A stretch of DNA of 64,000 nt from Kibdelosporangium persicum. Lineage in GTDB: Bacteria; Actinomycetota; Actinomycetes; Mycobacteriales; Pseudonocardiaceae. The stretch is from assembly GCF_013280595.1 (NCBI RefSeq), contig NZ_JAAATY010000003.1, positions 248,001 through 312,000 of the forward strand, read 5' to 3'. Position 1 is the first letter of the stretch; the number at the start of each line of letters is the position of its first letter. The notes under the pieces were generated by a model. It searched no databases. It was given only the letters and a program-made list of their open reading frames with translations, and had not been told where the DNA came from. Positions 52,380 to 60,071 of the stretch are shown in pieces. The translations under genes were made by a program, and so were the position numbers.

Positions 52380-53354
52380 ATGACCCAGGGGAGCCGAACT
52401 ATGGGAGGCTGGCCGGTTGGGGACGCCGGCGCGGTCGACGAGGTCGACGTGCTGGCTGGTGATGCGTTCCCCGTCGCCCTGCGTGCGGCGATCCGCGCGA
52501 GTGGGCTGAGTCTTGACCGGATCCAGTACCGGCTCAGAGCCCGGGGCCTGACCATCAGCGTGACGGCGCTGAGTTACTGGCAGTCGGGCAGGCGCAGGCC
52601 GGAACGGCCGGAGTCGATGAGCGCGCTGAAGCATCTCGAGGAAGTGCTCGGAGTGGAGTCGGGGTCTTTGACCGCGTTGCTCGGGCCGCCGCGTCCGCGT
52701 GGCCGAGCGCAACGTACGCCGACCGCGATACCCATCGACGCGTTATGGAACAACCGCGAGCAGTTGGCGCCGTTGCTGGCGCGGATGGATCTGGCTTCGG
52801 ACACGTCCTTGACGCGCATCAGCCAACACGATCGGGTGGAGATCGCGGGCGACCGTGGCGAACGCAACGTGCGCGTCCGCCAGGTGTTACGTGCCGAGCA
52901 TGACGGCGCCGACCGCTGGATCTCTGTCTACGACGTCGCGAAGCCCGGTAATCCGCTGCCGCGGATCGTGCCGTTGCAGTCGTGCCGGCTCGGCCGCGTC
53001 GCCGAGGACCCCGAGGCCGGTCTGATCGTCAGCGAACTGCTCTTCGACCGTCCGCTGGCACGCGGCGACACCGTGATCATGGAGTACGAGGTCGCCATGG
53101 CCGGGCCGCCGTACGCGCGCGGCGACGATTCGTTCTGCCGCAAGTTCCGGCTGCCGGTCCGTGACTACGTCGTCGAGATGCGGTTCGACCCGACCGATCT
53201 GCCGGCGTACTGCCACCAGGTCAGCACGCCCGCCGACGACCCGGACTCCGCGACGCGGCGGGATCTGGTCGTCGACAGTGCGGGCCGGACGCACGCCGTT
53301 GTGCTCGGTTTCGGGCCGGGCACGTTCACGGTTGAGTGGGGCTGGGTCCCCTGA
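52380..53354 (+). CDS. XRE-type regulator with uncharacterised C-terminal domain
   Basis: 324 residues. An N-terminal helix-turn-helix with a winged look (LSLDRIQYRLRARGLTISVTALSYWQSGRRRPERPES, about 40-85) leads into a helical linker. A beta-rich C-terminal domain follows (HDRVEIAGDRGERNVRVRQVL; GADRWISVYD; DSFCRKFRLPVRDYVVEMRFD) that I cannot assign. It may bind a ligand or partner. The promoter region contains GGTTAC/GTAACG half-sites that could be autoregulatory. It converges on the next gene with a 29-bp overlap. Confidence 0.8.
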   Translation: MTQGSRTMGGWPVGDAGAVDEVDVLAGDAFPVALRAAIRASGLSLDRIQYRLRARGLTISVTALSYWQSGRRRPERPESMSALKHLEEVLGVESGSLTALLGPPRPRGRAQRTPTAIPIDALWNNREQLAPLLARMDLASDTSLTRISQHDRVEIAGDRGERNVRVRQVLRAEHDGADRWISVYDVAKPGNPLPRIVPLQSCRLGRVAEDPEAGLIVSELLFDRPLARGDTVIMEYEVAMAGPPYARGDDSFCRKFRLPVRDYVVEMRFDPTDLPAYCHQVSTPADDPDSATRRDLVVDSAGRTHAVVLGFGPGTFTVEWGWVP

Positions 53355-55020
53355 TCTCGTTCAGGTAGTTGTAGATCGTGTACCTCGTCACCTGCAGTTC
53401 GGCGGCGAGGTAGTCGACGGCGTCCCTGATCAGGAAGAACCCTGCTTCGTCGAGCACTTTGACGACCTGGGACTTGTGCGCCTTCTTCATCAGCCCGACG
53501 GGCACGCCGACGTCCGCGACCGCGCGTTCGACCAGGTGCCGTTGCAGTGTGTCGACGTCGCCGGGGAACGTCTCCACGTCCTGTGCGGGCGGCGTGGCCG
53601 ACATGGACTCGGAGTTGACGCACAGGCATCCGACGGCGACGCCGTCCGGGTCGCGGATGAACACCGTGGACGACGTGATCGGCCGTCCGTCGGGCGCGTG
53701 GGTTTCGTAGTTGGTCAGGTCCTGGGTGGTTCCGCGGCGCACCAAACCGAGCAGCAGGTCGGTCATCGGGCCGCCCACCGTCCGGTGGGTCAGGTCGCCG
53801 GCGATGGCCACGATCGAGTTGGGCAGTTTGCTCAGGTCGTGCAGGACCACTTCGGTGCCCGGCCCGAGTGCCGCGCCGAGTCCGTTGATCGTCGGGATCA
53901 GCGTTTCGAGCACTCCGGCGACCGACCGTTTCGGTTCGGCGCCCGGCCGACCGGTCGGCAGGAGACGCTTCAGCGCGATGGACAGTTGGTCGATGGTGTC
54001 CGCGGTCGTGGACACGTGCGGCGACAACCGGACGTGCTCGGGGCGGATGGTCGCGCTGATTCCCTCCGCGTTGAGGACCGCGCCCACGGTCTCGGCCGGG
54101 TGGCCGGGGATCGTGAACGCCAGGATGCCGGCCCGGCGAGCGGGTTCGAAGGACGAGACGATCTGGCCGCCCGCTCGGTGCACCACGTCGCCGAGTTCGT
54201 CGATCTTGGCCGAGATCTCCGCCTCGATCTGGCTGATCCCGGACTGCTCGACGAGCTCCAGCGCGACGTTCAGCGCGCCCGCCGCGATCGGGCTGAGGTT
54301 CGTCAACGACCAAGCCGCCGCGAACGGCGCCGGTTGGTGCACCTCGTTGTCGAACAGCCCCGGGTCCTCGGCGCCGGTCCAGCCGGACAGCACCGGATCG
54401 AGCCGTTCGAGTGCGCGGTCGGACAACACCATGAATCCGGTCGACCATCCGGCGCGCAGCCATTTCTGTCCGCCGACCACGAGTACGTCGGCGACCTCCC
54501 ACGGTTCGTCGACAACGCCGAAACCCTGGATGCCGTCGACGACGAGCAGGCGGTCGCCGGCGATGTCCCGCATCCGCGCCAGGTCCGCGCGATAGCCCGT
54601 CCGGAAATCGACCGCGCTGAGCGATATCGCGACCGTCTCCTTGGTCAGGCCTTCCCCGATTTCCGTCACATGACGAACCCAGTGCGGAGTCACGCCCGGT
54701 GCCCGTGACCAGGGATAAGTGTTCGCCGGGAACTCGGCCGCGGAGACGACGACCTCGCCGGTCACACCGAAAGCGACCTGGAAAAGGCCGGTGCTGGTGT
54801 TGGGGAGCAGCACGACATGGTCGGTGTCCGTCCGGCAGAGCCGGGCGACCGCCGCTCGCGCGCGCAGATCCTGACGCATCAGGTCGTCGACCGTCGTGGG
54901 CCCGGCGACCGCCGAGTACTCGGTCAGCCGCGACCGCTCGGCGAGCACGGCGTTGGACGGCGGGCCGAACCGCGCGAAGTCCAGGTATCCGGTGGGCTCG
55001 CGGAACTGGTTGGGGATCAC
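53326..55020 (-). CDS. Fusion: class-V PLP aminotransferase-like enzyme + YheO/DauR-type DNA-binding sensor
   Basis: 564 residues. Residues 1 to about 355 form a class-V aminotransferase/cysteine-desulfurase fold: LLPNTSTGLFQVAFG, the cofactor Asp162 and Gln165 in VVDGIQGFG, and the Schiff-base Lys186 in VVGGQKWLRAGWSTGFM. Residues about 366-480 match a YheO-like PAS domain (VVLHDLSKLPNSIVAIAGDLTHRTVGGPMTD). Residues about 505-556 match its helix-turn-helix (KKAHKSQVVKVLDEAGFFLIRDAVDYLAAELQVTRYTIYNYLNEI). This mirrors MocR regulators but with other domain families in the opposite order. It abuts an amino-acid ABC transporter, so an amino-acid-derived signal is inferred. Confidence 0.88.
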   Translation of the reverse strand: MIPNQFREPTGYLDFARFGPPSNAVLAERSRLTEYSAVAGPTTVDDLMRQDLRARAAVARLCRTDTDHVVLLPNTSTGLFQVAFGVTGEVVVSAAEFPANTYPWSRAPGVTPHWVRHVTEIGEGLTKETVAISLSAVDFRTGYRADLARMRDIAGDRLLVVDGIQGFGVVDEPWEVADVLVVGGQKWLRAGWSTGFMVLSDRALERLDPVLSGWTGAEDPGLFDNEVHQPAPFAAAWSLTNLSPIAAGALNVALELVEQSGISQIEAEISAKIDELGDVVHRAGGQIVSSFEPARRAGILAFTIPGHPAETVGAVLNAEGISATIRPEHVRLSPHVSTTADTIDQLSIALKRLLPTGRPGAEPKRSVAGVLETLIPTINGLGAALGPGTEVVLHDLSKLPNSIVAIAGDLTHRTVGGPMTDLLLGLVRRGTTQDLTNYETHAPDGRPITSSTVFIRDPDGVAVGCLCVNSESMSATPPAQDVETFPGDVDTLQRHLVERAVADVGVPVGLMKKAHKSQVVKVLDEAGFFLIRDAVDYLAAELQVTRYTIYNYLNEIRGPSPTQP

Positions 55021-55785
55021 CTATAGCACCTTCGCCAGGAACTGCTGTGTGCGCTGATGTTCCGGGTTGTCCAGGACCTGGCTGGGCGGGCCGGTCTCGA
55101 CGACGGCGCCGTCCACCATGAACACGACATGGTCGGCGACCTGACGGGCGAAACCGATCTCATGGGTCACCACGATCATCGTCATGCCGTCCTTGGCCAG
55201 CCCCACCATCACGTCCAGTACCTCGCCGACCAACTCCGGATCCAGCGCCGAGGTCGGCTCGTCGAACAACATCAGCTTCGGTTCCATCGCCAGTGCCCTG
55301 GCGATCGCTACGCGCTGCTGCTGCCCGCCGGACAACTGGCCCGGATAGGCGTCGGCCTTGTCCGCCAGCCCGACGCGGTCAAGCAGTGCCATCGCCTTCT
55401 TCCGCGCCTCGGCCTGGTCGCGGCGCCTGACCTGGACCGGTCCTTCGACGACGTTCTGCAACGCCGTGCGGTGCGGGAACAGGTTGAACCGCTGGAACAC
55501 CATGCCGATGCCCCGGCGTTGCTTGGCTACGTCACGTTCGCGCAGCTCGTACAACTTGCCGTTGCGCACGCGGTAACCGATCGGTTCGCCGTCGACCCAG
55601 ATCTGGCCGCCGTCGAGCGGCTCCAGATGGTTGATGCAGCGCAGGAACGTGCTCTTGCCCGCGCCGGACGGGCCCAGCAGGCAGACCACCTGGCCGGGCT
55701 GGACGTCCATCGACACATCGTGCAGCACAGTCGTGTGGCCGAATTTCTTGACCACACCGACCGCACGAACCAGTGGTTGCGTCAT
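55021..55785 (-). CDS. Polar amino acid ABC transporter, ATP-binding protein
   Basis: 254 residues of the GlnQ/HisP class. Walker A LLGPSGAGKSTFLRCIN, Q-loop GMVFQRFNLFPHRTALQNV, signature LSGGQQQRVAIARALAM, Walker B LMLFDEPTSALDPELV, switch His in VVTHEIGFA. The ATG at 55785 overlaps the permease stop (ATGA); its own stop directly abuts the fusion gene start. Confidence 0.96.
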   Translation of the reverse strand: MTQPLVRAVGVVKKFGHTTVLHDVSMDVQPGQVVCLLGPSGAGKSTFLRCINHLEPLDGGQIWVDGEPIGYRVRNGKLYELRERDVAKQRRGIGMVFQRFNLFPHRTALQNVVEGPVQVRRRDQAEARKKAMALLDRVGLADKADAYPGQLSGGQQQRVAIARALAMEPKLMLFDEPTSALDPELVGEVLDVMVGLAKDGMTMIVVTHEIGFARQVADHVVFMVDGAVVETGPPSQVLDNPEHQRTQQFLAKVL

Positions 55786-56651
55786 GCCCGCCCCAACTTC
55801 AGTGACCGGCCGACCTTGTTGCGCAGGCGATGCGCGCGGTCGGCGGCGTCGAACGACCGTTCCAGGTAGTACTGGCCGACGCTGGCGATGCTGACCAGGA
55901 TCATGTACCAGGCCGCGGCCGCCAGCAGCGTCTCCATGAACTCCAGGTTGCGCGAGGCGATGTTGCTCGCGGCCTTGGTCAGTTCGACGTACGGGATCAC
56001 CGAGGCGATCGACGTGCCCTTGAGCATGTTGATGAAGTCGTTGCCGGTCGGCGGGATGATCACCCGCATCGCCTGCGGCAGCGTCACGCGGATCAGCGTC
56101 TTGCCGGGTGTCATCCCGATCGACTGCGCGGCTTCGATCTGCCCGCGGTCGACGCTGTTCAGTCCGGCGCGGATGATCTCGGCCATGTAGGCGCTCTCGT
56201 TGAGCCCGAGGCCGAGCAGCGCGGCGGCGAACGCGTTGATCACCGTGTTGGTCGGCGCGTCGACGACGAACGGGATCGAGATGACCGGGAACACCAGCGC
56301 GAGGTTGTACCAGATCAGGATCTGCAGCAGGACGGGCAGACCACGGAAGATCCAGATGTAGCCCCACGCGAACCAGCGGGCGACCGGGTTGGCCGAGCGG
56401 CCCATCAGCGCGATGACGATGCCGATGACGATCGCGCCTGCCTGCGCGGCGACCGCGAGGCCGAGGGTGCGCCACAGGCCGTCGATCATCACCTCGAACG
56501 CGAAGAAGTCCGGGATGTCCTCCCAGAGGATCTGCGCGTCGGCGAACGCGAACCCGAGCGCGACCAGGATGCCGACGATGACCGCCGCGCCGACCCACCG
56601 TCCCCAGTGGGTCAGCCGGACGATCGGCATGGTGGGGTCAGGGGCCGCCAT
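55782..56651 (-). CDS. Polar amino acid ABC transporter, permease
   Basis: 289 residues, HisM/GlnP type with about five helices. The EAA loop reads EIIRAGLNSVDRGQIEAAQSIGMTPGKTLIRVTLPQAMRVIIPPTGNDF and contacts the ATPase. YIWIFRGLPVLLQILIWY is the usual second-helix signature. It overlaps the binding-protein gene by 14 bp. A single permease, presumably acting as a homodimer. Confidence 0.95.
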   Translation of the reverse strand: MAAPDPTMPIVRLTHWGRWVGAAVIVGILVALGFAFADAQILWEDIPDFFAFEVMIDGLWRTLGLAVAAQAGAIVIGIVIALMGRSANPVARWFAWGYIWIFRGLPVLLQILIWYNLALVFPVISIPFVVDAPTNTVINAFAAALLGLGLNESAYMAEIIRAGLNSVDRGQIEAAQSIGMTPGKTLIRVTLPQAMRVIIPPTGNDFINMLKGTSIASVIPYVELTKAASNIASRNLEFMETLLAAAAWYMILVSIASVGQYYLERSFDAADRAHRLRNKVGRSLKLGRA

Positions 56652-57549
56652 TGACGGTGACCTTCTGGATCGCGCCCTGGGTGACGTTCCACGACTGCAG
56701 GATCTTGGTGTACGTGCCGTCGTCCACCAGCGACTGCAGCGCCAGCTGCACGGCTTTGGCCAGTTTCGGGTTCTGCTTGTTCACGCCGATGCCGTACGGG
56801 CCGCCGTTGATCGGCGGCAGGTTGACGACCTCGAAGTACTTGCCCTCGCCCGCGGTCTGGGCCACGTACACCGCGGTCGGCAGGTCGTTGAGGATCGCCT
56901 GGACGCGGCCGGTGCGCAGCTGGTTCTGGTTCTGCGTGTCACTGTCGGTGGCGGCGACCGTGACCTCGCCCTTGCCCTGCTGGGTGCAGATCGTGCCGCG
57001 TTCCTTGGCGTACGTCTCCTGGCTGCTGCCGGAGTTCACGGCGACCGCCTTGCCGCAGAGGTCGTCCGGTGACTTGATGCCCGCCGGGTTGCCCTTCTGG
57101 ACCATGATCGTGATGCCCGACGTGAAGTAGTCGACGAAGTCGATGGACTTCTGCCGTTCCTTGGTGTCGTTCATCGCGGCCATGGTCAGGTCGATCCGGC
57201 CGGCCTGCAGGCTGGTGATCAGCGAGCCGAAGGCCATGTCCTCGTAGACCATCTCCACGCCCAGCCGCTTGCCGATCGCCTTGGCCAGGTCGACCTCGGA
57301 ACCGATCGGTGTCTTGCCGTCGGCGGCGTAGAAGTTGTTCGGCGGGTTCTGGATGTTCGAGCCGATCCTGATCCGGCCGGCCGAGGCGATCTCCGGCGGC
57401 AGCTCCGCCGCCAGTTTGTCGTCCTTGGCCACCGCCGAAACGGGCGAGTCCTGCCCGCTGGGAGCCGGCGCGCCGGCCGGCTCGTCCTTGCCGCCACAAG
57501 CTGTGAGCAGCGCTAACGCCGCTGCCAGCACGCTGATCCGTCGAAGCAT
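56638..57549 (-). CDS. Polar amino acid ABC transporter, substrate-binding lipoprotein
   Basis: 303 residues. Signal with lipobox LLTAC (MLRRISVLAAALALLTACGG), then an SBP type-3 domain: GRIRIGSNIQNPPNNFYAADGKTPIGSEVDLAKAIGKRLG, IDLTMAAMNDTKERQKSIDFVDYF, and GVNKQNPKLAKAVQLALQSLVDDGTY. First gene of the uptake operon. The Arg/Asp ligand positions expected for amino-acid binding are generally present, but the exact substrate cannot be read from sequence. Confidence 0.95.
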   Translation of the reverse strand: MLRRISVLAAALALLTACGGKDEPAGAPAPSGQDSPVSAVAKDDKLAAELPPEIASAGRIRIGSNIQNPPNNFYAADGKTPIGSEVDLAKAIGKRLGVEMVYEDMAFGSLITSLQAGRIDLTMAAMNDTKERQKSIDFVDYFTSGITIMVQKGNPAGIKSPDDLCGKAVAVNSGSSQETYAKERGTICTQQGKGEVTVAATDSDTQNQNQLRTGRVQAILNDLPTAVYVAQTAGEGKYFEVVNLPPINGGPYGIGVNKQNPKLAKAVQLALQSLVDDGTYTKILQSWNVTQGAIQKVTVNGGP

Positions 57550-57559
57550 GCGGAGCAAA

Positions 57560-59032
57560 TTACAACTTTTGGTTGAGGCTGTCCACATTTTGTTGAAGCA
57601 TGAGTTCCAGCTGCTCGGACGCGACGGGCGGCGATGCCGGCGTGGGCTCTGGCATGCTGCCGCGCGGAAAACTGCTGCCTTGCAGGCCGTACTTGCGCAC
57701 GAGCGGCCTGACCCGTTCGGCGAGCCAGTCGCGGTACGTCCGGCTGGCGTAACTGCCGCGCGCGTAGATGCTCCGGTAGTCGTCGAGCAGGTCCGGGCGC
57801 TCGCGCGTCAACCACTCCGTGAACCACTCCCGGGTCCCCGGCCTCAGGTGCAACGGGATCATCGTCGCGCCGGTCGCGCCCGCCGCGGCGACCTCGGCCA
57901 GTACCGCTTCGATCTGCTCACGGGAATCGGTCATCCTGGGGATCACCGGCGCGATCAGCACACCGCACGGCAAGCCGGCGTCGGTCACCCGCTTGATCAT
58001 GTCGAGCCTGGCCTGCGGGCTGGGCGTGCCGGGTTCGAGCCGGTGCTGCAACTCGCGGTCGATCAACGCGAGCGAGACCGCGATGCCGACCGGGACTTGT
58101 TCGCTGACTTTCGCCAGCAACGGGATGTCCCGCACCATGACGGTGCCCTTGGTCAGGATCGAGAACGGCGTACCGGACTCCGCGAGCGCCTCGATGATCC
58201 GTGGCATCAACTTGTAGCGACCCTCGGCACGCTGGTACGGGTCGGTGTTCGTTCCCATCGCGACGTGCTCGCGCCGCCATTTCGGTGAGCGCAGTTGTTT
58301 GGCGACGACTTCCGGCGCGTTGACCTTCACCACGATCTGGGTGTCGAAGTCACGTCCGGCGTCGAACTCCAGGTACGTGTGCGTGTTGCGGGCGAAGCAG
58401 TTGTGACTCACCACGCCGTTGGCGATGAAATCCCCCGTGCCTGTGGTGATGTCGTACATGACGACCGGGTCGCCGAGCGGTTCGATGTTCGCGACGGCAA
58501 GCCGCGGTTCGATCACGCCGTCGATGTCGGTGACGAGCCGGACGCCTGCGGTAAGGAACGGTTGTCCGGTGATCCCTTCGATCACCTGCTGCCAGCCCTG
58601 CTCGGTCAGCAACCGGTGGTCGGCACTCGCGACGAGCGTTGTGCCGTCTTCGAGCGTGACACGGAACGCGGGTTTGACGGTCGTCCAGTGCGCGAGAACG
58701 CGCGTCGGCACACGCAGGCGGTGGTTGCCCAGCCTGCCGGTGCCGTAGATCTCGTCGCCGATCTTGACGTCGGCCAACGGACGGGTGGTGCCGTCGAGCA
58801 TCAGGATCTCGGTGTCGCCCGCGAGACAGTAGGTGCACGCGTGCGAGCAGCCGCGGTACGGGTTGATCGTCCACTGGAACGGCATCGACGAGCTGTTCGG
58901 CACCCGGTTGATCACCGACTTGGCATGCACCTCGTGGAATGTGATGTCGGCGAACTCGGGTGTGCGAACCGTCCGCACCAGCCCCGGTAAGGCCAGTTGC
59001 CCGCGATCGGCCCGTTGAGCGTCCCAACGCAT
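57560..59032 (-). CDS. Rv2578c-family radical SAM protein interrupted by an intein
   Basis: 490-residue precursor; the spliced product would have 347. Fe-S cysteines are Cys62 and Cys66 (RGCSHACTY) and, after splicing, Cys212 (CFARNTHTYLEFDAG), giving C-x3-C-x2-C. Later parts are MGTNTDPYQRAEGRYKLM and VSLALIDRELQHRLEPGTPSP, resembling the spore-photoproduct-lyase-like Rv2578c family. The ATG at 59032 lies ten bases after a perfect LexA box. Function is unproven; SOS control suggests DNA damage response. Confidence 0.93.
   Translation of the reverse strand: MRWDAQRADRGQLALPGLVRTVRTPEFADITFHEVHAKSVINRVPNSSSMPFQWTINPYRGCSHACTYCLAGDTEILMLDGTTRPLADVKIGDEIYGTGRLGNHRLRVPTRVLAHWTTVKPAFRVTLEDGTTLVASADHRLLTEQGWQQVIEGITGQPFLTAGVRLVTDIDGVIEPRLAVANIEPLGDPVVMYDITTGTGDFIANGVVSHNCFARNTHTYLEFDAGRDFDTQIVVKVNAPEVVAKQLRSPKWRREHVAMGTNTDPYQRAEGRYKLMPRIIEALAESGTPFSILTKGTVMVRDIPLLAKVSEQVPVGIAVSLALIDRELQHRLEPGTPSPQARLDMIKRVTDAGLPCGVLIAPVIPRMTDSREQIEAVLAEVAAAGATGATMIPLHLRPGTREWFTEWLTRERPDLLDDYRSIYARGSYASRTYRDWLAERVRPLVRKYGLQGSSFPRGSMPEPTPASPPVASEQLELMLQQNVDSLNQKL
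58400..58828 (-). other. Mini-intein (143 residues) in the radical SAM protein
   Basis: Block A starts CLAGDTEILMLDG with nucleophilic Cys1. Block B is TLVASADHRLLTEQGW (conserved His; Ser where Thr is usual). Block F is VMYDITTGTGDFIANG, and block G is VVSHN followed by Cys+1. There is no homing endonuclease between blocks B and F. The +1 residue is the third cysteine of the host's Fe-S motif, so the enzyme is inactive until splicing. Confidence 0.93.
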
Positions 59033-59041
59033 GACCGGGAT

Positions 59042-59057
59042 TCGAACATACGTTCGA
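59042..59057. promoter_or_regulatory. LexA (SOS) box
   Basis: TCGAACATACGTTCGA fits the mycobacterial SOS consensus TCGAAC(A/G)TNYGTTCGA at all 16 positions. It is ten bases upstream of the radical SAM start and 165 bp before the divergent AraC gene. Confidence 0.88.
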
Positions 59058-59222
59058 GTCGGTGTCAAACTTTGTACAGGTTTTGTACGCCGGTACGCGA
59101 CAGTGATCGTCAGCCGGCGGCGCACAACCCCCCAGGCGCCGCCGGCCGCCAACTCCTGTCGGTTTCCTGTCGCCTCCCGCCCATCGCCCGACGACCTCGA
59201 AACGGCCAGGAAAATCGGCGTC

Positions 59223-60071
59223 ATGACGACAGACCAGTGTTCGGTTCGTCAACCAGGGGGACGCTATCTCCCGATCTTCGAGCGCCAGTGGGCCGACGTG
59301 CGGATCCAGATCTCCCGGTGGCGTTCCGGCCCTGCCACCGAAGGTCTCAGCCAGCTCGATGATCACACGGTCTTCGTCACCCTGGCGGGCGCCACACATC
59401 GAACCGTGGTGACTCTGGACGACGGCCAGCGTTATGTCGGGGCCGACTTCCCGGGCGCCGTCACGTTCCTTCCCGCCGGTGTCCGGCGGCATACGCGCCA
59501 CGAGACCGGATTGGTCGAGTTCATCGCGTTCCGCCTGCGCCAGGACCTGATCCCCTCGGATTCGACCCAACTGCGGGCGTTCACCAACCAGCCCGACCCG
59601 GTGATCCACGACCTGGCCTGGAAGTGCCGTGACGAGACACGGGTGAACGGCGGGCCGAGCACGTTGTTCGTCGACAATCTCGCTACGACGTTGTCTTCGC
59701 ACCTGGTGACCAAGTACTCGGCTTCGTCACCTCGACCGAAATCCGTCGTCGTCGACCGGCGACGGTTGCTGTACGTCCTCGACTACATCAAGGACCATCT
59801 GGCCGAGGACTTGCGACTGGCCAAACTCGCGACGTTGGCCGACATGGACGTCTACCAGTTCGCGCGCGGTTTCAAGCGGGCGACGGGGCAGTCGCCGCAC
59901 CGCTACGTGATCGGCCAGCGGGTGGAACGGGCCGCCCTGCTGCTGGCCCGCTCCACCCGGCCGATCTCCGAGATCGCGCATGAGGTCGGGTTCGCCAGCC
60001 AGGCCCACCTGACCACGACGTTCCGCAAAGTGGTCGGCGAGACCCCGCTGGCATACCGCGAGGATCGTTAG
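59223..60071 (+). CDS. AraC-family transcriptional regulator
   Basis: 282 residues. An N-terminal cupin-like sensing region (TLAGATHRTVVTLDDGQRY; FPGAVTFLPAGVRRHTRHE) is followed by two helix-turn-helix units (LAKLATLADMDVYQFARGFKRATGQSPHRYVIGQRVERA; RPISEIAHEVGFASQAHLTTTFRKVVGETPLAYR). The ATG at 59223 starts the conserved part; AGGAAAA lies upstream. Its end converges on the molybdenum hydroxylase genes, a plausible target. Confidence 0.92.
   Translation: MTTDQCSVRQPGGRYLPIFERQWADVRIQISRWRSGPATEGLSQLDDHTVFVTLAGATHRTVVTLDDGQRYVGADFPGAVTFLPAGVRRHTRHETGLVEFIAFRLRQDLIPSDSTQLRAFTNQPDPVIHDLAWKCRDETRVNGGPSTLFVDNLATTLSSHLVTKYSASSPRPKSVVVDRRRLLYVLDYIKDHLAEDLRLAKLATLADMDVYQFARGFKRATGQSPHRYVIGQRVERAALLLARSTRPISEIAHEVGFASQAHLTTTFRKVVGETPLAYREDR

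Follow-up and report, generated by a model that had tools for sequence, protein, structure and literature searches.

A class-V PLP domain fused to a PAS-HTH regulator behind an amino-acid importer in Kibdelosporangium persicum: a predicted self-regulating enzyme and its predicted operator

Introduction

A 64,000-nucleotide stretch of the Kibdelosporangium persicum genome (NZ_JAAATY010000003.1, positions 248,001 to 312,000; hereafter the window) carries on its reverse strand a gene that joins a class-V pyridoxal 5'-phosphate (PLP) enzyme domain to a YheO-type PAS domain and a helix-turn-helix (HTH) domain, directly behind genes for an amino-acid importer of the ATP-binding cassette (ABC) type. 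The locus raises the question of what such a protein is: an enzyme that carries its own regulator, or a transcription factor in which the PLP fold serves as the sensor, as a sequence-only reading of the window had proposed. Judged from its recurrence among relatives, the architecture is a real and conserved enzyme-regulator fusion, and the protein is most likely self-regulating. The reading that we consider probable is that of a bifunctional catabolic enzyme, i.e. a PLP enzyme with its own autorepressor controlling import of the substrate.

Results

The fusion gene and the importer genes ahead of it comprise the following features:
53326..55020, reverse strand: PLP (class V)-PAS_6-HTH_22 fusion gene, 564 aa, a single uninterrupted frame with a GTG start (domains by Pfam)
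53956..55020, reverse strand: PLP domain, about residues 1-355 (Pfam and alignment)
53608..53910, reverse strand: PAS_6 (YheO-like) domain, residues 371-471 (Pfam)
53359..53541, reverse strand: HTH_22 domain, residues 494-554 (Pfam)
55021..55785, reverse strand: amino-acid ABC importer ATPase (PF00005); best NCBIfam matches EhuA, GlnQ and TcyN, all below cut-off
55782..56651, reverse strand: importer permease; HEQRo_perm_3TM above cut-off, best equivalog a cystine permease, below cut-off
56638..57549, reverse strand: solute-binding lipoprotein of family 3 (SBP_bac_3), with a lipobox-like LTAC and its ATG at 57549

The three domains predicted by the sequence-only reading are present in one frame, each above its Pfam gathering cut-off: Aminotran_5 at residues 53-322 (59.4 bits, cut-off 21.5), PAS_6 at 371-471 (100 bits, cut-off 27) and HTH_22 at 494-554 (71.9 bits, cut-off 29.6). 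The expected position directly behind the solute-binding protein (SBP), permease and ATPase genes was likewise borne out, as the fusion's GTG at 55020 abuts the ATPase stop codon (TAG GTG, zero bases between); importer and fusion gene occur in this order in 136 of 188 loci. Because the same fused frame stands behind the same importer in all of these, the fusion is neither chance nor a sequencing join; and because the same-strand genes abut or overlap, we infer that they form an operon. SBP_bac_3, HEQRo_perm_3TM and the ABC ATPase occurring together mark the importer as a family-3 amino-acid ABC importer.

Production of the two halves as separate proteins, through a frameshift or an internal start, is unsupported, and the fusion stood up to this test: frames are uninterrupted in the fusions read, and the linker between the PLP and PAS halves, which varies in length, contains GTG, TTG or, in many cases, ATG codons in 63 of 64 fused rows (L005 could not be placed), with no conserved internal start and only scattered Shine-Dalgarno-like sequences across the 63 placed rows. 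A minor second product from an internal start may exist. An AlphaFold2 model of the fusion from a 78-row alignment, which supersedes one from 19 rows with a predicted local distance difference test (pLDDT) score of 63, has a mean pLDDT of 92.4 and a predicted template modelling score of 0.70; the model falls below 50 only in linker 357-363 and at the C-terminus, and the blocks linking PAS to HTH have means of 66-74. Two cysteines of the PAS domain, C464 and C466 (numbered from the second residue) in the stretch G-C-L-C-V-N, are invariant in 31/31 fused rows, which raises the possibility of a redox or sulfur signal at this pair.

The distribution of these parts was read from a PLP-half profile, which found matches in 169 of 390 family genomes (E up to 1e-30) and in 24 of 394 genomes of a class-wide draw (E up to 1e-70), the window's own genome included. 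From the family, 163 genomes and the window were read, one place per genome; five weak matches (G008, G016, G266, G270 and G304; E about 1e-30 to 1e-43) and second matches in G086, G091 and G134 were left out. From the class draw, 20 of the 24 genomes were taken (G677, G755 and G537 left out, the remaining one being the window's own). With three further loci and 22 from the named collection the total was 208, from which 21 with a duplicate PLP sequence were dropped, leaving 187, or 188 with the window. An importer was scored where SBP, permease and ATPase each reached at least 50% identity in the 3.5 kb upstream; L052, with an SBP alone, and L029, with a less similar importer 4.6-6 kb before, were counted as importer-less, and L234, in which just 461 bases of contig precede the match and the importer cannot be judged, was scored as having none.

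Importer and PAS-HTH fusion occur together in 136/188 loci, the window included, and 47 loci have no importer, PAS or HTH (44 with the PLP domain alone, two with it joined to an alcohol dehydrogenase and one truncated). Four loci (L021, L045, L076 and L077) encode a PLP-HTH protein and lack PAS and importer; for L021 and L077 this is confirmed by Pfam, with Aminotran_5 and HTH_22 as the only domains. One locus, L223, retains PAS and HTH without the importer. All 23 loci read outside the family (L025-L044, L105-L107) are without PAS, HTH and an orthologous importer. In the named collection, the three loci nearest to the window protein are 91-92% identical to it, and two of them are titled Kibdelosporangium; one record titled Rhodococcus rhodnii (L004) is 92% identical and has Kibdelosporangium flanking genes, so it is probably mislabelled.

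The distribution bears directly on what the PLP half does. In an alignment of 70 PLP domains reaching down to 34% identity (A1; residues counted from the second), K185, D161, Q164, W186, R188, R330 and H334 are identical in 70/70 rows. Among these, K185, D161 and R330, which by their motifs we take to be the Schiff-base lysine that the sequence-only reading had assigned, the aspartate under the pyridine nitrogen and the carboxylate-binding arginine, are the features of a class-V PLP enzyme. The active-site residues are also unaltered in every stand-alone PLP row among the 70, and the persistence of the PLP half with an intact active site after loss of the regulator is enzyme-like behaviour. 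Within the reading that we favour, the N-terminal half is accordingly of a kind that would probably be a working PLP enzyme.

The fold group of this half is, on the structural model, clearly class V. The best solved matches in Foldseek are class-V enzymes, including PvdN and a Thermococcus cysteine desulfurase (each TMt 0.77) and, at TMt 0.81, the cystine C-S lyase C-DES. C-DES, PvdN, SufS/CsdA and EgtE share with the window's PLP half the fold, a sequence relation and active-site residues; the window protein differs from them in its attached regulator and in NCBIfam scores far below cut-off (35 bits for the SufS model, cut-off 475). Identity as a SufS/CsdA-type cysteine desulfurase was rejected, since no conserved catalytic cysteine of the SufS type on the active-site loop was found in the 70 rows; the sole column with cysteine in more than 20 of them, index 61, is not invariant and lies far from that loop.

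A conserved 37-bp element lies ahead of the first gene of the operon, with the family consensus TTCAAC-N5-GTTGAC-N3-TTCAAC-N5-GTTGTA. In the window, two features overlap there:
57561..57597, reverse strand: tandem palindromic predicted operator, TTCAAC-N5-GTGGAC-N3-CTCAAC-N5-GTTGTA, 2/24 mismatches to consensus
57557..57585, reverse strand: promoter-like core overlapping the element, with -35 TGGACA (57585-57580), a 17-bp spacer and -10 TAATTT (57562-57557)

The promoter region at 57.55-57.60 kb had been proposed as the DNA target of the fusion, and the position of this element supports it. Its two palindromes repeat with a 20-bp period and cover the -35 and the -35/-10 spacer; the promoter-like core inside the family element reads TnGAC, 18 bp, TAnnnT. 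Alignment of 64 copies shows nearly invariant arms and variable spacers, with conservation declining beyond the arms and core promoter; in TAnnnT, the initial TA and the last T are the same in 64/64. Since the -10 ends 7 bases ahead of the ATG, the operon message is probably leaderless. The window copy lies within the final codons of the radical-SAM gene found upstream. That gene (57560-59224, reverse strand) encodes a radical-SAM-like protein with its cysteine motif split by an intein-like insert (ACTYC-LAGDTEI ... VVSHN-CFARN), which presumably resembles the known Rv2578c intein.

The element co-occurs with the HTH. With the 5-3-5 spacing fixed and at most 2/24 mismatches, it is found in 141/141 loci that keep the HTH (136/136 with importer and fusion, 4/4 PLP-HTH and the single PAS-HTH locus without importer) and in 1/47 without it (L048). 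Half-decayed copies stand in two more HTH-less loci, L047 (3 mismatches) and L020 (4 mismatches), and 44/47 are at 7 or more. In the importer-less loci L021, L045, L076 and L077 the element precedes the PLP-HTH gene itself, at -76 to -166, and in L223 it stands at -78 ahead of the fusion; the element thus follows the HTH and not the importer. It is also nearly unique within genomes: no second copy occurs in the window's own 10.35-Mb genome when up to 3 mismatches are allowed, and 36 further genomes have it at one place (33) or none (3), with 0 matches for a control pattern. In the 64-kb window the next best place has 9 mismatches, and the element read on the opposite strand has 5. Taken together, the element is probably the operator of the fusion protein.

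Importer and intact PAS are concordant in 187/188 loci. A perfect coupling of the two, which held in the first 113 rows, was broken by L223 among the remaining family loci and had to be given up. Mapped on a 71-row tree, the paired state shows 10 changes, of which well-supported branches require at least 8, and independent pairs agree 8/8 (sign test, p 0.008); a quicker 113-row tree gives 9 changes and supported pairs 5/5 (p 0.0625). From the 113 rows, the smaller tree leaves out 18 that are divergent and 24 fused ones that are nearly identical, L064 is in neither, and both predate the last 86 loci, L223 among them.

Loss is directly visible, by comparison of the sequences, in L020, which is closely related and shares the flanking genes; there, importer and PAS-HTH are gone and the PLP frame is kept. 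This frame ends in an apparent remnant of the old C-terminus (EIRGSNPTRR versus NEIRGPSPTQP), and its gene has taken the place behind the radical-SAM gene at which the importer once started. Elsewhere in importer-less genomes, the best match to the orthologous permease is only 37-46% identical in 10/10 tested, compared with 71-72% in two fused controls, so that this permease is absent and not moved. Several lineages of these soil actinobacteria appear to have shed regulator and importer while the enzyme stayed.

Some loci stand apart in other ways. In L052, the SBP gene alone is left of the importer, at -1006 to -14 ahead of a PLP gene that stands alone, and the operator has decayed (5 mismatches and another spacing, hence outside the counts above). 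L064 keeps a truncated PLP remnant (85/351 profile positions, the frame ending after 117 aa), a sign that loss can reach the enzyme as well; the flanks of this locus have gene clusters in common with Saccharothrix-type loci. The PLP domain of L088 and L089 (from about 10.1 kb) is fused in-frame to a zinc alcohol dehydrogenase, a second and different fusion, and the dehydrogenase part of L088, the one scanned, matches TIGR03366 (phosphonate-catabolism associated) above cut-off at 365.5 bits. At 2.5-2.7 kb upstream of the PLP gene of L114, the SBP match comes in two pieces (residues 1-74 and 74-316), apparently out of frame through a frameshift or sequence error. In the window, a 324-aa protein at 52380-53354 (forward strand) converges on the fusion gene with a 29-base overlap at its end; it has no Pfam or NCBIfam match at E 0.001 and is also present in L003-L005, L020 and L114.

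As to the substrate, the importer proteins match models for cystine, ectoine, glutamine and lysine/arginine transport below cut-off, and neighbouring genes give further hints. The stand-alone PLP gene of L029 shares 4 bases with a gene whose nearest models, those for D-cysteate sulfo-lyase and D-cysteine desulfhydrase, match it below cut-off; the permease of the more distant importer at this locus is nearest the cystine model, again below cut-off. The PLP gene of L107 overlaps a PALP gene by the same 4 bases, L105 has an isochorismatase gene near its stand-alone PLP gene, and in family f39 such genes have conserved housekeeping neighbours (PhoH2 by NCBIfam in L030; by sequence reading, a uppS-like gene); no partner gene common to the stand-alone PLP genes was found among the neighbourhoods read. 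The second PAS_6 gene of the window's own genome (L001) adjoins a gene of the D-serine-dehydratase/alanine-racemase fold, a PAS_6 gene in family f21 (L137) adjoins a PALP enzyme, and several others adjoin, by sequence reading, RidA-like genes.

The sequence-only reading had pointed to a link of DauR/YheO relatives to D-arginine. DauR is reportedly associated with D-arginine use, and its gene in uropathogenic E. coli is, we assume, that of YheO. In the accessible part of one study, dauR of that organism lies before the sulfur-relay genes tusDCB (PMC11026471). No link of the present locus to D-arginine was found, our literature searches gave no paper on DauR and D-arginine, and the hints of D-amino acids are circumstantial, coming from neighbour genes. 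A sulfur-containing or D-amino acid is our tentative guess.

Discussion

The mechanism that we propose assigns separate tasks to the two halves. The PLP half would act on the amino acid brought in by the importer encoded upstream. The PAS_6-HTH_22 half would be a local repressor: class-V PLP enzymes are dimers, and a dimer of the fusion could bind the two tandem palindromes 20 bp apart, covering the -35 and the -35/-10 spacer and so shutting off the importer genes along with the fusion gene. Sensing of the imported amino acid or its product would fall to the PAS domain, possibly also to occupancy of the PLP site, and the sensed ligand would free the DNA and open the operon. Repression, and not activation, is suggested by the position of the element over the -35 and spacer, a usual site for a repressor. 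Because PAS, and not PLP, goes with the importer, the PAS domain is the likelier ligand sensor and probably responds to the imported compound or to a derivative.

Several points weigh against this account. No NCBIfam equivalog listed for the three importer proteins is above cut-off (for the ATPase, among the best 25 of 189), which leaves the substrate prediction weak. The four PLP-HTH proteins keep HTH and element without a PAS, so that the PAS seems unneeded for DNA binding and may not be the sole sensor; in these proteins only the PLP domain could serve as sensor, unless they repress their own genes constantly. L223 keeps PAS and HTH without the importer, in a genome (96% complete, 6% contamination) whose best permease match is 43%. 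The position of the element suggests repression without proving it; the loci are kin, so the raw 141/141 versus 1/47 overstates their independence, and Fisher values, which ignore this relatedness, are given no weight here; and the changes counted on the trees do not by themselves distinguish loss from gain.

Other explanations have to be weighed against the same evidence. Were the PLP half mainly a sensor, as in MocR, with formation of the external aldimine moving the HTH and catalysis absent or incidental in the fused form, the retention of HTH and element by L021, L045, L076 and L077 without PAS and importer would be readily understood, and MocR operators, too, typically contain direct repeats spaced by two or three turns, as well as combinations of direct and inverted repeats (PMC5320631). 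We regard this explanation as unlikely: regulator-free PLP genes occur in three further families and at many loci of the window's own family, with the active site unchanged in those aligned, L020 retained the PLP frame and shed regulator and importer, and the importer is tracked by PAS and not by PLP. What the sequence-only reading had put forward as independent PLP-based sensing stands as regards fusion and operon; a PLP half present as the sensor is not supported as stated, given the 47/188 loci that have it without PAS or HTH, though the four PAS-less proteins with HTH and operator speak for it, and we consider it less likely than an enzyme with a PAS-based repressor. A possible though doubtful variant is an independent counterpart of MocR in which the PLP enzyme still works and turnover or substrate occupancy at the PLP site sets DNA binding.

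It could also be that the halves were joined for co-expression or stoichiometry only, the PAS domain sensing an unrelated signal (e.g. redox via C-x-C) and the PLP half having no influence on DNA binding. The invariant C464 and C466 and the low-confidence, variable-length linker 357-363 would fit such an arrangement, but the concordance of PAS and importer in 187/188 loci argues for a signal tied to the imported compound, and we give this explanation little credence. That the 37-bp element is merely a strong conserved promoter, and not the operator of this protein, is very improbable: it does include -35- and -10-like sequences, but its invariant TTCAAC arms lie outside the promoter hexamers, and it tracks the HTH and stands at one place per genome where found. 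The preferred reading remains that of a PLP enzyme that would repress its own operon through its PAS-HTH half.

The closest parallels are the MocR, GabR, PdxR and EnuR regulators of the GntR subfamily, which likewise have a fold-type-I PLP domain and an HTH in one chain, and whose operators of direct and inverted repeats resemble the window element (PMC5320631, as far as its accessible text goes). At the level of sequence, the tandem palindromes with their 20-bp period near the promoter correspond to that operator type. Membership in the MocR subfamily was ruled out, as both the N-terminal GntR domain and the C-terminal Aminotran_1_2 domain are lacking: by Pfam, the window fusion has no GntR domain, an HTH_22 at its C-terminus (494-554) and an N-terminal Aminotran_5 (53-322) with no Aminotran_1_2 match listed, in agreement with the earlier description of different domains in reverse order. 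It further differs from MocR in its extra PAS_6 and in a PLP half that also exists alone as a likely enzyme.

YheO, DauR and CfiR have PAS_6 and HTH_22 in the identical order and exert local control of a neighbouring gene, but they are stand-alone regulators, whereas the window pair is fused behind a PLP enzyme. In the part of the source available, CfiR represses the adjacent L-PSP gene, Cj1387, a PAS_6-HTH protein, represses its own adjacent gene, and PAS_6 is credited with five architectures (PMC4519771), among which the present one may already be. In 296 genomes of the phylum we found 25 PAS_6 matches, of which the window's is the only fusion seen, barring one long frame in G478 (1346); the other 24 lie in frames of 213-306 aa, apart from G478. 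Our literature searches found no publication describing this fusion or operator. For YheO-type PAS_6 proteins, a little-known family, the locus supplies a target operon with a precise predicted operator.

PutA, BirA and NadR also combine an enzyme and a DNA-binding domain in one chain and control their own operon or pathway; the window fusion has a different enzyme, fold and DNA-binding domain. New here is the 37-bp predicted operator; in the fusion, a PLP fold group other than that of MocR is paired with another kind of HTH. With the fusion protein, a defined 37-bp target and natural PAS-less versions, the sensing module becomes testable. MocR prompts one to ask how a fold of PLP enzymes turned into a transcription factor, and the living relatives of the window protein display stages: the enzyme alone, the enzyme-PAS-HTH protein with importer and operator, and the enzyme-HTH protein without PAS. 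Should the counterpart to MocR outlined above prove true, the lineage would supply these as natural stages, the PAS-less enzyme-HTH form with its operator included.

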